From: a virus
Virus record (IMG/VR): IMGVR_UViG_3300046471_000076
Coordinates: 1-28,338 of that record
Length of the DNA stretch: 28,338 bases
Strand: one strand, 5' to 3'
A program made the translations under genes and the position numbers. How positions within the stretch are numbered: the first letter of the stretch is position 1; each line of letters begins with the position of its first letter. This document shows positions 16,239 to 26,197 of the stretch, one piece after another. The notes under the pieces are model-generated. The model saw only the letters and a program-made list of their open reading frames with translations, did no database searches and was not told the origin of the DNA.

Positions 16239-16577
16239 ATGGATATTTCGGGCGTAACCGTGGGCCTTATTACTACCATTATCGGAGGCGCTTTTGTCAC
16301 TTGGCTGTACGGTCCAGCAGATGCGAATCTCAGAGCTTTACGCCGCCTGAAGATCATGGGAAGCATCTTGTATAAAGTTCTGGGGTTGGTCGGTGCCATC
16401 GGAATGGTGATTAGTTGCGCGTTCGAGTTCTACAGGTTTGCGTACTCGGAAGCGCCTATCCAAAGGCTAGAAATTGTTGGCCTGTTTTTCTACATGCTCA
16501 ATTTCTTTGTCTACCTATTGTCGGGCATGGCGATCTTGATGATCTGGATAAACCCAACTCCCCGAAAACGCCAGTAG
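16239..16577 (+). CDS. Small three-helix membrane protein of unknown function (orphan plus-strand gene)
   Basis: I do not recognise the family. The 112-residue product has three hydrophobic segments, near residues 5-24, 40-62 and 78-103, with a basic loop after the first (LRALRRLK) and a basic tail (NPTPRKRQ). It has an AGGA ribosome site seven bases before ATG. It stands alone on the plus strand between two minus-strand blocks, which suggests a moron expressed independently of the lytic programme. Base composition is lower in GC than the neighbouring late genes. It could be a superinfection-exclusion protein or a second lysis-associated protein; nothing in the sequence decides. Confidence 0.65.
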   Translation: MDISGVTVGLITTIIGGAFVTWLYGPADANLRALRRLKIMGSILYKVLGLVGAIGMVISCAFEFYRFAYSEAPIQRLEIVGLFFYMLNFFVYLLSGMAILMIWINPTPRKRQ

Positions 16578-20922: not shown

Positions 20923-20937
20923 TAACCTATAAGGTTA
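20923..20937. promoter_or_regulatory. CI/Cro operator 1 (perfect palindrome, cro side)
   Basis: TAACCT-ATA-AGGTTA is a perfect 15-bp palindrome. It overlaps a plausible minus-strand promoter for cro (TTGCAA, 17 bases, TAATTT), so a bound repressor would block cro. The core matches the copies at 20963 and 22332. Confidence 0.82.
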
Positions 20938-20962: not shown

Positions 20963-20977
20963 TCACCTAACAGGTTA
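20963..20977. promoter_or_regulatory. CI/Cro operator 2 (one mismatch, cI side)
   Basis: TCACCT-AAC-AGGTTA matches the palindrome at 20923 except for one base in the left arm. It lies 20 bases before the cI start, so it is placed for autoregulation of cI. Centre-to-centre distance from operator 1 is 40 bases, close to four helical turns, which would allow cooperative binding on one face. Confidence 0.75.
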
Positions 20978-20996: not shown

Positions 20997-21644
20997 ATGA
21001 AAATCGCAGATACCCGCCTACAAAATTTCCGTAGAGTCATGGCTGATAAAAGGCTTCGACTAACTGACATAGCTGACCTACTGGGCAAAGCACCCGCGCA
21101 GGTGAGCGCTTTTGGGGGAAAGAACCCTACGAAAGGGATCGGTGATCAGATTGCGAGAGAGATTGAAGCCGCGCTTGGACTACATAGCGGTTATCTGGAT
21201 ATGCCATATGGGATTGGCGAATTCAACAACGCCACGGTGCTAAGTCATACAGGACGCAAACTGCCAGTAATGGGATCAATAAGCGCAGGAGCTTGGTGCG
21301 AATCAGGTGCAACTTTCGACCCGCGTGATGCGGAAGAATGGATCGACGCCCCCGGCCCAGTAGGACCAAGAGCGTTCATCCTGCGCGTTGAAGGTATGAG
21401 TATGGAGCCGAAATTTTTGGAGGGTGACAAGATCGTTATCGATCCTTCTCTTGAAGCTCTCCCGGGCCATTTTGTAGCTGCAAAAAGAACGAGAGATCAA
21501 GCGGCAACTCTTAAGCAATTAAAGCAGGAAGGCGGCGAGCAATACCTGTACGCCCTAAATCCGGATTGGCCTGAACGCATCATAAAAATGACAGAAGAAT
21601 GGACCATTTGCGGCAGAGCAAGATGGAAGATTTCAGACCTTTAA
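20997..21644 (+). CDS. CI-type prophage repressor, LexA/S24 self-cleaving
   Basis: Maintains lysogeny and is inactivated by RecA-stimulated self-cleavage. Of 215 residues, the N-terminal 65 hold a helix-turn-helix (LTDIADLLGKAPAQVSAFGG). The C-terminal S24 domain has a likely cleavage site at Ala97-Gly98 (SISAGAW), nucleophile Ser135 in VEGMSMEP, and general-base Lys173 in ATLKQL. So the prophage should be inducible by DNA damage. No strong ribosome site precedes ATG. It is divergent from cro, and the membrane gene downstream is in the same direction. Confidence 0.95.
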   Translation: MKIADTRLQNFRRVMADKRLRLTDIADLLGKAPAQVSAFGGKNPTKGIGDQIAREIEAALGLHSGYLDMPYGIGEFNNATVLSHTGRKLPVMGSISAGAWCESGATFDPRDAEEWIDAPGPVGPRAFILRVEGMSMEPKFLEGDKIVIDPSLEALPGHFVAAKRTRDQAATLKQLKQEGGEQYLYALNPDWPERIIKMTEEWTICGRARWKISDL

Positions 21645-21673
21645 CCATTTCCGACTAGAGCCAGTATGTCAGT

Positions 21674-22261
21674 ATGACAGAAAGAGAAAATGCACAGGCC
21701 GACGCTCAAGCTGTTGAGTTTTACGCAGCTAGGGTCAATGCCTGGATGGCTACAAAGTTTGAGCTGGATAAAAGCCTTCTAACGCTCAGCGCTGCGGGCA
21801 TTGGCCTAGTGATCACACTGATTTCAACCGTTGGCGTCAAATCTATAGAAAGTCTGATCCTATCAATACTGACGCTTACAAGCTTCGTCTTTTGTTTAGC
21901 TAGCGTTCTCTGCACATTCAAAATGAATGCTGGGCACCTTGAAAAAACAGTTAAAGATCCTAACGTGACGGATGACCCGATTCTCAAAATACTCGATCAC
22001 ATTTCAATGTGGTCTTTTGTTGCCGGAGTTTTGCTGGCATGCATAATCGGGTTTTCAACTGCAATTAATTCCTACATTGAGAAGACAAAGAAAATGACTG
22101 AGCCGACCCTAGTAAACTCCACAGGTATTGAGTCATTGAACGGGATTATGAATATGCAACCACCTCAAAAGAACAACACTCAAGCAAACACCACTCCCCC
22201 AGCTGCGCAACAACCTACCCAAAATCAAACAAAATCAGATGACACCCAAAAGGGTAAATGA
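21674..22261 (+). CDS. Three-helix membrane protein downstream of the repressor (rexB-like position)
   Basis: I do not recognise the family. The 195-residue product has a soluble N-terminus (1-33), membrane segments near 35-53, 60-82 and 111-130, and a long Gln/Asn/Thr/Pro-rich tail (about 150-195). It begins 29 bases after cI on the same strand with no terminator between, so it should be expressed in the lysogen with the repressor, the place of rexA-rexB in lambda. Composition is clearly AT-richer than the structural genes. A superinfection-exclusion or other lysogenic-conversion function is inference from position and topology. Confidence 0.72.
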   Translation: MTERENAQADAQAVEFYAARVNAWMATKFELDKSLLTLSAAGIGLVITLISTVGVKSIESLILSILTLTSFVFCLASVLCTFKMNAGHLEKTVKDPNVTDDPILKILDHISMWSFVAGVLLACIIGFSTAINSYIEKTKKMTEPTLVNSTGIESLNGIMNMQPPQKNNTQANTTPPAAQQPTQNQTKSDDTQKGK

Positions 22262-22322
22262 CAGACGAGTGCTCGTCGGCCTTATAAAGTGCCGACCTGA
22301 ACACCTTCATGGTTATTTTAAT

Positions 22323-22350
22323 TTGACTTGTTAACCTACAAGGTTAATAT
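22323..22350 (+). promoter_or_regulatory. Early promoter (PL-like) with CI/Cro operator 3 inside it
   Basis: A promoter with -35 TTGACT (22323-22328), a 16-base spacer and -10 TAATAT (22345-22350) precedes the gene at 22387. The spacer and start of the -10 are filled by the 17-bp perfect palindrome TTAACCT-ACA-AGGTTAA (22331-22347), the same core as the two operators at cro/cI. Repressor bound here would occlude polymerase, so the plus-strand accessory operon should be silent in the lysogen. Confidence 0.85.
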
Positions 22351-22386: not shown

Positions 22387-22563
22387 ATGCACACCACAGC
22401 AACCCTGCACGTCCATCCGGCCGCTGCCACCCCCTTCCAAATTTTTGAGATCCGGCGCCTAGCCCGCCAGTACGGCTGCGAGTTCGCCATCAGCAAGCCG
22501 AAGCTGACAGCACTCGCCACTCCCGCCCCAGTCAATCCGAACGGCGGAGGGCATGCAGCATGA
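22387..22563 (+). CDS. Hypothetical 58-residue protein, first gene of the PL operon
   Basis: A small basic protein of unknown family beginning MHTTATLHVHPAAATPFQIF, with a GAGG-type ribosome site. The middle (IFEIRRLARQYGCEFAISKP) looks like an amphipathic helix followed by a strand; the tail is Pro/Ala/Gly-rich. I take the ATG at 22387 rather than an in-frame one at 22351, which lies right beside the promoter. It overlaps the next gene by ATGA. Confidence 0.65.
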   Translation: MHTTATLHVHPAAATPFQIFEIRRLARQYGCEFAISKPKLTALATPAPVNPNGGGHAA

Positions 22564-23150
22564 TCAAGTACAAAATCGACAACCGCACCCTGCAGTTGCT
22601 CAACGCCCAGGTCAACCTGACCGAGACCTTCAACCACGTACTCCGGACCGCGCCCAAGCGCGAGTGCCTGGCGTTCCGCCTCAAGGTTGAACGCGGCATT
22701 TCGGAAAGCACCTTCGTCGTGGAGTTGGGCAGCGAACGCCACACGCTGACCCTGCCGAACGAAAAGAAGATGCATCTCAAGCTGGCCGACTTCATCGAAG
22801 AGATCGCCAACGGCCCGTTCGATGCGAGCAATACCAGCGACCTGCTCCACCACTCTCACGCCAGCCGCGAATACGGCCGCTTTGAAGTCTCGGACAAGCA
22901 GCGAGTTTTTGAGTTGGTACGCACTGGCGGCGTGCTGAACCTCGACATGGGTTTCGACTACCCGCTAATCGTCGCACTTCATCGCACTCAGTCTCGCTCA
23001 GGTGTCACCACCATCCTGAGCATCGGTAACAAAAGTCCGCACACCCGTTGCTTCACCGTGTACGGCAGCGATGTCGAGATCTACGGCAAGGTCACCGAGT
23101 CCATCAACCACCTCGCTGCAGCGGCAACCCCTGCCGCGCACGCGGCATGA
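22560..23150 (+). CDS. Hypothetical 196-residue early phage protein
   Basis: Unknown family. The start has a GGAGG ribosome site and an ATGA overlap with the previous gene. The N-terminal half is mixed alpha/beta and charged (NEKKMHLKLADFIEEI at residues 67-82); the C-terminal half is rich in strands (RVFELVRTGGVLNLDMGFDY, GVTTILSIGNKS). There are no cysteine clusters, membrane segments or catalytic motifs that I can name. GC-rich codon use matches the core phage genes, so it appears long resident in the operon. Confidence 0.75.
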   Translation: MIKYKIDNRTLQLLNAQVNLTETFNHVLRTAPKRECLAFRLKVERGISESTFVVELGSERHTLTLPNEKKMHLKLADFIEEIANGPFDASNTSDLLHHSHASREYGRFEVSDKQRVFELVRTGGVLNLDMGFDYPLIVALHRTQSRSGVTTILSIGNKSPHTRCFTVYGSDVEIYGKVTESINHLAAAATPAAHAA

Positions 23151-24411: not shown

Positions 24412-24950
24412 ATGAAATTCTGACCTCTACCGGCAAACGCTTCGAACTGTTCAAGCCCGACACCATCATGATTGACCCACACGACATCTCGCACGCGCTC
24501 GCTCATCTGTGCAACTTCAACGGTCATGCCCGAGAGTTCTACAGTGCTGCTCAACACAGCTGCATCGTTGCCGACCTGGTGCCAGAAGAACACAAACTCG
24601 CAGCCCTACTTTATGCCGCCGCCGACGCGTATGTGGCGCTCATTGACGAACATCCCAAGGTTCGGATGTTCGTTTACCAGCATTTTGAAGAGCTTATCTG
24701 GCAACGTATTTGCGAGGAGTTTGACCTACCCCTCGAGCCCCCTGACTGCGTGTACCAGGCCAGCCTCGTTGCAATGGCCACCGAGTACCGCGATCTCATG
24801 CCCACCGATACGGCCATCCGGGATTGCCTGATCGGCATCGAGCCCATGAATGAAACGATTCATCCATGGTCCGGGACCGAAGCACGGCTCACTTTTCACC
24901 AGCGCCTGATGGATCAACTTGCTATCGAACATCGGAGGAAAGCGGCATGA
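24408..24950 (+). CDS. HD-family phosphohydrolase-like protein lacking the HD dyad
   Basis: A 180-residue protein of the HD domain (YfbR-like) type common in phages: LTSTGKRFELFKPDTIMIDP, DISHALAHLCNFNGHAREFY, AAQHSCIVADLVPEE. The first metal-binding His (His50 in QHS) is present. At the defining second motif, where family members have LLHDAAEAY, this protein reads LLYAAADAY: His and Asp are Tyr69 and Ala70. It is therefore predicted to be catalytically dead or repurposed. It overlaps the previous gene by ATGA and has a GGAG ribosome site. The family is clear; the present role is unknown. Confidence 0.82.
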   Translation: MNEILTSTGKRFELFKPDTIMIDPHDISHALAHLCNFNGHAREFYSAAQHSCIVADLVPEEHKLAALLYAAADAYVALIDEHPKVRMFVYQHFEELIWQRICEEFDLPLEPPDCVYQASLVAMATEYRDLMPTDTAIRDCLIGIEPMNETIHPWSGTEARLTFHQRLMDQLAIEHRRKAA

Positions 24951-25300
24951 CGCATTCAAAGGACACCACTCAGGTGCAGACCGCTTTGCTTCGCGATGAC
25001 AGTGGGATCGACACGCCTGTAAAAAACAATCTCTGCTGCGCAGCAGCAGGCATTATTGCTCCTTCCAGCACCACCAGTGAGGCGCTTATACCCCGCGAAA
25101 AGCTGCGCGAGGCAACCACACCCAATGTAACGCTAATCGCTCAGAATCGCCCGCCCGCGCAGCCTGTTGTGGAGTACACGCACCCCGTCAGCTTTTCTGA
25201 GTTAAACATCAAGGAGGGGCGGATCGACTACCTCGCTGAGTTCGTAAAAGATATGAACGCTGGTTCCGTCCTGAAGTGCGACGTGTACCCTCACATATCA
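24947..25300 (+). pseudogene. 5' part of an early-operon gene, probably disrupted
   Basis: A frame starting MTHSKDTTQVQTALLRDDSG overlaps the HD gene by ATGA with a GGAGG ribosome site, so it begins like a genuine operon member. Residues about 1-110 look coding (EYTHPVSFSELNIKEGRIDY). Beyond 25301 the frame stays open to 26197 but runs antisense to a well-supported minus-strand gene, and its translation there looks like shadow. I read this as a gene whose 3' part was replaced when the inverted gene arrived; the end given is where the minus-strand gene begins. Alternatively the whole 416-codon frame is translated. No family is recognised. Confidence 0.45.
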
Positions 25301-25891
25301 CTAGTACTCGGCGAATGTTGTGGCAGAGGAGCGGATAATTTCTTTGTTGAACTTCATGCTGATTCCAATGTTCCTCAGCTCTTCGCCTTTAGCTCCAGCA
25401 ATGTAAGCTCGCGAATGTCGAGCCGCACTTTCCATGTTATGGATCAACAAAAGAAATGGTTGGATCATCTCCGCTTTAGGGAGACTTACCAGCTCAATTC
25501 CTTTGATGGTCATCGTGTGCCGCTCGACATACTCAATCCAGCTAACAAACTCGCTCATTTTGTCTTTGACTTGTCCTGTGGAGGCCAACTCAAAAAGACG
25601 CTCAACAGCCATGCTCGTAGATCGGGCAATTTCAGCAATCGAAACGATAATCACCCGATCTTTTTCTTCTTTGTTTCTAATCTGCTCGCTCTGTTGCCTT
25701 CTAGCAACGCTCGCCGTGGCCCAAATGGCGCCTACTGCACCTACAGCTTGCACCCATGCTGGGGCATTATCCTTGGTCAGATACTCGATGCTCGCCCAAA
25801 CCAGACCGAAGCCAATCAACGCTCCGAAGGGGGAGGAAAAAATCTGTGCGACGGCTTTCCGCGGATTGAACGTAACTTTTTCGGGCAACAT
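25301..25891 (-). CDS. Inverted membrane-anchored protein gene inside the early operon
   Basis: A 196-residue protein from MLPEKVTFNPRKAVAQIFSS (25891), preceded by an AGAGAGAAG ribosome site; an upstream in-frame Met (25972) is less likely. Two membrane segments lie near residues 22-38 and 45-63, with the APAWVQAVGAVGAIWATASV hairpin often seen in small phage membrane proteins, followed by a charged helical cytoplasmic domain (64-196). It is transcribed against the surrounding operon and is richer in AT. It therefore escapes PL control and is likely expressed in the lysogen. Family unknown; lysogenic-conversion or anti-phage function is a hypothesis. Confidence 0.7.
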   Translation of the reverse strand: MLPEKVTFNPRKAVAQIFSSPFGALIGFGLVWASIEYLTKDNAPAWVQAVGAVGAIWATASVARRQQSEQIRNKEEKDRVIIVSIAEIARSTSMAVERLFELASTGQVKDKMSEFVSWIEYVERHTMTIKGIELVSLPKAEMIQPFLLLIHNMESAARHSRAYIAGAKGEELRNIGISMKFNKEIIRSSATTFAEY

Positions 25892-25960
25892 TTGAACTTC
25901 TCTCTGGTTAGATTGCTGCCCTCTCCTCTCGGAGTTGCAACGGCGCTTAGACGGAAAGCT

Positions 25961-26197
25961 ATGGCTACTCATAACGTCATAAGCGGCGGGAAAGATAGCA
26001 CTCCGACATTACTCGATGCCATCGCACAAAATGCATTCTGCCTGCTGGCCAGCATCTGCCAGATCGACAATGCGAAAACACCTAGCAGAGAAATTCCGTG
26101 TGACCTTGTGGTTAGCATGGACGCGATGGACTGCTCAAGCGCATACATAATCTACAACTCGTACCTAAATTCAGCGGCCACCCGGGAGGTAGCATGA
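25961..26197 (+). pseudogene. Remnant of a PAPS reductase-like (PP-loop) gene
   Basis: A 78-codon frame starting MATHNVISGGKDSTPTLLDA, with GGAAAG shortly before the ATG. SGGKDST is the nucleotide-binding PP-loop of the phosphoadenosine phosphosulfate reductase family, members of which occur in phages with an N-terminus like HVISFSGGKDST. Here two residues before the loop seem missing, and after about 26 residues the similarity fades; full-length relatives are over 200 residues. It is therefore a truncated remnant. Its stop overlaps the next start (ATGA). The call rests on a short motif. Confidence 0.4.

Follow-up and report, generated by a model that had tools for sequence, protein, structure and literature searches.

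The stretch of DNA analyzed here, referred to as the window, comprises all 28,338 bases of the virus record IMGVR_UViG_3300046471_000076. Immediately behind its cI repressor gene it encodes, in a single open reading frame (21674-22261, plus strand, 195 amino acids, ATG start), a membrane protein with three transmembrane (TM) segments (residues 1-140) fused to a motif-bearing tail (residues 141-195). Judging from sequence and genomic setting, it appears an even prospect that this gene is lysogeny-expressed cargo and constitutes an undescribed two-part anti-phage module of the superinfection-exclusion or abortive-infection type. A defence role in general is probable from the same kind of evidence, the tail very likely represents a distinct second protein within the family, and that the gene is real is virtually certain. 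An earlier note on this DNA had proposed an undescribed exclusion gene at this place, a candidacy strengthened by the hotspot character of the slot and by homologues that belong to a type I R-M operon or sit in integron cassettes. Its reading is incomplete, since the fusion of two genes, the conserved tail motif and the conserved internal start were missed.

The gene and its place in the prophage

The window prophage is contractile-tailed and encodes tail sheath, baseplate, major head, portal and large terminase as well as primase/helicase, a CII-like activator and an integrase; it is a Pseudomonas-type myovirus and its host a Pseudomonas-like bacterium. The early region opens with the cI gene (20997-21644, plus strand), which harbors an HTH and an S24 peptidase-like domain (PF00717, E 5.4e-22; phrog_4, E 2.8e-31) and whose product is a genuine S24/LexA-type repressor. 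The gene under study begins 29 nt past the cI stop codon on the same strand and no terminator-like site is found between the two, as the earlier note had stated; its AT-richness is likewise borne out by a GC content of ~43-46% compared to ~60% in most of the prophage. On the far side of the slot lies a conserved early gene (22560-23150, plus strand, phrog_15582, function not assigned), which serves as a marker.

Elsewhere in the window, an AT-rich ORF of 112 amino acids with apparent membrane helices (16239-16577, plus strand) runs against the direction of the late genes through a local drop in GC content (16.0-16.9 kb) and is possibly another moron gene. An ORF of 443 amino acids (24866-26197, plus strand) is located in a low-GC stretch (48-52%) immediately ahead of the integrase gene and gives no PHROG match at E<=1e-5.

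The operator-like palindrome TAACCTNNAAGGTTA occurs on both sides of cI and the cargo. Upstream of cI it is found at 20923-20937 (as TAACCTATAAGGTTA, with equivalents in 64 of 66 related loci) and in a weaker copy with two mismatches at 20963-20977; the third palindrome, TAACCTACAAGGTTA, lies just 3' of the cargo at 22332-22346, and 62 of 66 related loci have a palindrome of this kind downstream of cI. In total, six matches on both strands of the window compare with 0.11 expected by chance. The third palindrome overlaps a sigma-70-like promoter site, TTGACT-16-TAATAT (22323-22350, plus strand), for the early operon that follows the cargo, and most simply this promoter would be repressed by CI. 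Because the palindromes bracket cI together with the cargo and the third one coincides with the next promoter, the cargo probably shares a transcript with cI and hence is likely expressed in the lysogen, in agreement with the earlier expectation of a product made by the dormant prophage.

Hydropathy places TM1 at residues 35-53 (21776-21832), TM2 at residues 61-79 (21854-21910) and TM3 at residues 110-128 (22001-22057), all on the plus strand, and three TM segments are also seen in most homologues. An AlphaFold2 model of moderate quality (pLDDT 66.5, pTM 0.49, computed from a three-row alignment) contains helices 2-53, 58-92 and 102-142 followed by a disordered tail (143-195); the three membrane helices of the first description thus reappear in both analyses. 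TM1 is preceded by the conserved residues T27, E30, D32 and K33 within the stretch T-x-x-E-x-D-K-S-L-L-T-L-S. The lysine and arginine counts favor an N-in orientation with the N-terminus and the TM2-TM3 loop in the cytoplasm. This topology poses a difficulty for the two-part reading: it would put a fused tail into the periplasm, and tail protein made on its own would stay in the cytosol.

The window protein could not be assigned to a known family, as had been stated before: Pfam, PHROGs, PADLOC and NCBIfam return sub-threshold chance matches only, a PDB profile search returns nothing, and a Foldseek search with the model gives no match at E<=0.001. The helical-bundle folds that came up (PA28, CRAC Orai) are not significant and were dismissed as not meaningful. 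Nine homologues were found, which makes a family of ten with the window protein; their core identity is 26-56%, and 13 core residues are invariant in an alignment of eight sequences, which identifies the ORF as more than a chance reading frame.

Variable cargo in the slot of related prophages

When 2.9 million viral contigs were queried with the repressor, 80 related loci emerged; the phrog_15582 gene as query gave another 80. Measured from the cI stop codon to this next conserved gene, the slot ranges from 265 bp, i.e. empty, up to 3.4 kb. Three relatives (L055, L058 and L071) have an empty slot, and in alignments to these sites the homology of the window ends exactly at the cI stop (21644) and restarts at 22303-22332. 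The cargo of the window is thus a discrete insert of ~0.66-0.69 kb (21645-22331, plus strand, with its right edge between ~22303 and 22331).

In the relatives the cargo is AT-rich (mostly ~37-46% GC), lies on either strand and falls into ~46 clusters. Of 20 cargo proteins scanned one at a time with PADLOC, members of ten clusters match defence models, namely PD-T7-3, PARIS-like AriA, PDC-S59, AbiTii, PDC-M01A/B, the DRT UG17 reverse transcriptase, PDC-M34B, the SIR2/ThsA-like PDC-S25, PD-T4-2/NsnA and AbiC. Pfam adds SLATT_1/3/5, GmrSD, HEPN, cytosine DNA methylase and putAbiC domains. From this variety of cargo and the defence matches the slot emerges as a defence hotspot, with a fixed locus, conserved flanks, a variable insert, known defence genes elsewhere and empty sites. 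In this sense the notion of a "rexAB position" occupied by protective genes is well founded. About half of the clusters scanned individually have no PADLOC match, so that residence in the slot is no proof of defence.

The commonest cargo among the slots, found in nine loci (L007:4677-5702, L023, L034, L035, L042, L045, L046, L047 and one more), is a protein of ~320-365 amino acids with hydrophobic N-terminal segments and without PADLOC match, a candidate for another undescribed defence protein. Individual scans also leave without PADLOC match a slot membrane protein (L032:4682-5518, L054, L075, L077), a protein of 484 amino acids (L008:4649-6103, L031, L059) and one of 539 amino acids (L020:4689-6308). 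A two-gene cargo is present in L060:4678-7192, L065 and L066, and its first gene, which was scanned, has no PADLOC match either.

A place where prophages carry differing anti-phage cargo at a fixed position has been described for P2 and P4 prophages of E. coli (PMC9122126). The hotspot reported here differs in its location, as in Pseudomonas-type myovirus prophages it separates cI from the early promoter.

Homologues and the tail as a second gene

The homologues are located on the conjugative plasmid pSBAL17502 of Shewanella baltica (L001), in S. nanhaiensis (L002) and two further genomes of the same genus (L166/L172 and L167/L173), in two Pseudomonadaceae (L170, L171), in two other genomes from a Pseudomonadota sample (L178/L180 and L179/L181) and on one viral contig (L165), the last being caught by a hand-made pattern of the TM1 signature. 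They are sparse: 2 of 398 Pseudomonadaceae genomes contain one, as do 1 of 369 gammaproteobacterial and 3 of 117 Shewanella-genus genomes, where the search employed a shallow two-row profile that may miss distant homologues. A tblastn search of plasmids gave a single match, on one Shewanella plasmid; tblastn against 50,697 phage records gave nothing for either the window protein or the L171 homologue, and pattern scans of viral contigs derived from the protein likewise gave nothing.

Several of these settings are informative. In L179/L181 the gene closes an HsdR-HsdM-HsdS type I R-M operon with a 4-nt overlap to HsdS, and an AAA_15/AAA_21 ATPase is encoded near the homologue (L181). Two to three genomes carry the homologue as an integron cassette: L173 contains a cassette array in which a relaxed consensus scan finds four attC-like sites, together with a tyrosine integrase resembling integron integrases; in L170, attC-like repeats of 80 nt stand on both sides of the gene, detected as direct repeats although the relaxed scan misses them; and an attC-like stretch in L172 was judged by eye. 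A scan with the strict attC consensus gave nothing. Integron cassettes often hold anti-phage genes (reviewed in PMC12409362); the two to three homologues at hand correspond to such anti-phage cassettes in being small cassettes of attC arrays, and differ in having no PADLOC match. Some integron and plasmid neighbours of the homologues have no known defence role. Taken together, the settings suggest defence or mobility. The earlier note had held that homologues outside prophages with an unrelated role would speak against exclusion; homologues outside prophages do exist, but rather than an unrelated role their surroundings indicate association with defence or with mobile elements.

On the viral contig L165 (1124-3482) the homologue is immediately preceded by a gene for a Ser/Thr protein kinase (Pkinase, E 1.6e-25), which is a possible further defence pairing.

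Comparison of the homologues alters the picture of the tail. Previously it had been described as a long Gln/Asn/Thr/Pro-rich extension; a disordered tail is indeed present, but it is not simply of low complexity, as it corresponds to a second small gene and bears a conserved motif. In L178 and L179 the membrane gene stops right after TM3, and a separate small gene with a good ribosome site begins 10-20 nt further on, encoding a protein of 61 or 74 amino acids (MTKEQSKGQPMATKSFDEIGNLDL... and MSEKKSGVVPLRESVDGLGNMRP...RSVDGLGNLRP...). In L001 and L002 the small ORF lies in the +1 frame, overlapping the membrane gene, and one or two further copies come after it. The window, L165, L166, L167, L170 and L171 have the small gene joined in frame to the membrane gene, with an ATG retained at its old start; L171 in addition possesses a further motif ORF, which starts in an ATGA overlap where the first gene ends. 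In the window the counterpart of the separate small gene is a nested ORF of 55 amino acids starting at the internal ATG of Met141 (22094-22261, plus strand, MTEPTLVNSTGIESLNGIMNMQPPQ...).

Every tail bears between one and three copies of the motif S-phi-x-G-[AIMLV]-x-x-[LMI] or of a sequence close to it, most often with [QKR] and proline behind. The copy in the window, SLNGIMNMQP (residues 154-163; 22133-22162, plus strand), conforms to the full pattern S-phi-x-G-[AIMLV]-x-x-[LMI]-[QKR]-P, and its residues S154 and G157 are invariant in the alignment of eight sequences. The motif is scored in 9-10 of 11 tails compared to 0.013-0.017 expected in shuffled sequences; this tally is an undercount, as the small ORF of L001 was scored motif-free although its correct frame has the motif. 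In the other cargo of the slot the S-phi-x-G motif was not found.

An ATG is present at the position of the tail start in all eight members first aligned, in L001 and L002 in the +1 frame. In seven of the eight the SD energy before this ATG amounts to -4.2 to -5.9 kcal/mol. The site of the window is weak with -2.7 kcal/mol, a value reached at 25% of the positions within the gene. Separate production of the tail in the window prophage is somewhat favored. In the topology suggested by the charges, and as a matter of speculation, the internal start may have been kept as the sole route by which a fused gene can provide a cytosolic motif protein.

At its very end (region 22245-22290) the gene of the window has its stop codon in an ATGA overlap behind AAAAGGG, which opens an ORF of nine codons. 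The same kind of overlap opens the real second motif ORF in L171, so the short ORF of the window may be a remnant of such a gene.

Proposed mechanism and alternative readings

The two-part module may be pictured as follows. Part one would be an inner-membrane effector with three TM segments (residues 1-140) and part two a small disordered protein in which the motif occurs one to three times; here this protein is fused as a tail while its own start Met141 is kept. In the lysogen both products would be made from the cI transcript, and the motif protein would bind the membrane part and keep it inactive or tune its activity. Infection by another phage would alter this interaction, upon which the membrane part would assemble and damage or depolarize the inner membrane, so that the infection is stopped. 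Separate production of the tail and the defence activity are what we infer; permeabilization of the membrane and a regulatory role of the motif protein are guesses, and the latter may act as inhibitor, sensor, scaffold or amyloid-like template. Membrane damage under regulation by the motif protein is proposed by analogy with RexAB, in which the membrane effector harms the infected cell once its partner signals that a phage has entered; it is a tentative mechanism, somewhat more doubtful than probable.

Among known systems, a RexAB-type pair (RexABpp of prophage P1) is located downstream of the CI repressor in P. putida (PMC12894663). With RexAB of lambda and RexABpp the module shares the prophage-borne position 3' of the CI repressor in a likely lysogenic transcript and the combination of a membrane protein with a soluble partner. 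In contrast to RexB with its four TM segments, the window protein has three, and the RexB profile PF15968 gives no match in the window with the threshold at E<=10. No gene for a RexA-like partner is present between cI and the ORF or between the ORF and the early promoter; in place of the DNA-binding RexA, the soluble part here is a short, disordered protein with the motif, whose coding sequence follows that of the membrane part or is joined to it. The SLATT/S-4TM effectors of CBASS-type and RT-associated modules are small helical membrane proteins of defence systems as well, and some related prophages carry a SLATT protein in this very slot. Here, a cyclase, SLOG or RT partner is missing, and neither the SLATT profiles nor S_4TM (PF18159, E<=10) match in the window. 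The distant similarity to RexB or S-4TM-like effectors that the earlier note had suggested looking for is thus not observed.

The nested start resembles the layout of SieB/Esc of P22 and lambda. The P22 sieB/esc gene reportedly encodes a membrane protein with an in-frame internal start that gives rise to a C-terminal product, as Ranade and Poteete are said to have found in 1993. By analogy, the full-length protein of the window could exclude other phages, with the Met141 product as an in-frame inhibitor that frees the phage's own lytic growth. Such self-immunity would fit the size class of ~195 amino acids, the in-frame internal start with its predicted product and the retention of the internal ATG in eight of eight members. 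The SieB profile PF14163 gives no match in the window at E<=10, however; sieB belongs to the early left operon, whereas the window gene follows cI; and the internal product is a free-standing gene in other genomes. Moreover, self-immunity of a phage would be pointless in integrons, on a plasmid or in an R-M operon, where the small protein nevertheless stays conserved and is sometimes present in several copies. We consider this explanation quite improbable. With the profiles failing, three TM segments in place of four and RexA absent, the module belongs to neither the RexAB nor the SieB/Esc family. A different analogy is provided by HK97 gp15 and P22 SieA, exclusion proteins which block entry. 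The membrane protein might correspondingly hinder DNA injection or the docking of the tail to the membrane without killing the cell, and the motif tail would be a specificity part that may act in the periplasm, where the charge distribution would put it when fused. An inner-membrane protein likely expressed in the lysogen would suit such a role, but the separate small proteins have no signal peptide in their sequences and the cargo of the related slots is mostly of intracellular or abortive kinds, which leaves an entry block unlikely.

The sharing of a short motif between the tail and neighbouring small ORFs, its Q/N-rich context and its occurrence in one to three copies would be explained if S-phi-x-G were an oligomerizing, amyloid-like signal common to the effector and the adjacent small proteins. 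Bacterial amyloid signalling sequences are a class found via motifs common to neighbouring NLR and effector genes (PMC8086366), as in the pairs known as BASS; the motif of the module recurs in neighbouring small ORFs of L001, L002 and L171, where no NLR was seen. Against such templated signalling, which we regard as highly improbable, stand the absence of an NLR or Bell-type partner and a core of ~10 residues as compared to 20-40. Finally, the sparse distribution among the genomes searched would also be expected of a non-defence membrane protein, a mobile accessory serving housekeeping or stress functions (toxin-antitoxin-like or in envelope stress, for example), that happens to travel on integrons and a prophage. 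The defence-rich slot, membership in the R-M operon and the integron cassettes in two to three genomes argue against this explanation, which we rate as rather unlikely.

Within the two-part reading preferred here, a still broader generalization would be a new class of membrane defence, in which an effector with three TM segments is controlled by a tiny disordered S-phi-x-G-repeat protein, the two genes repeatedly fuse or overlap, nested starts deliver tethered as well as free motif, and the module is mobile among prophages, integron cassettes, plasmids and R-M operons. At present the existence of such a class must be called doubtful.

If the gene is protective, it would represent a compact membrane exclusion family of less than 600 bp that has been missed by profile libraries, and an apparent low-complexity tail would turn out to be a second functional protein. 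Beyond the window gene, this slot of the Pseudomonas-type prophages can be read as a catalogue of candidate defence genes, in which several common cargo families lack a PADLOC match, such as the nine-member L007 and the four-member L032 clusters.
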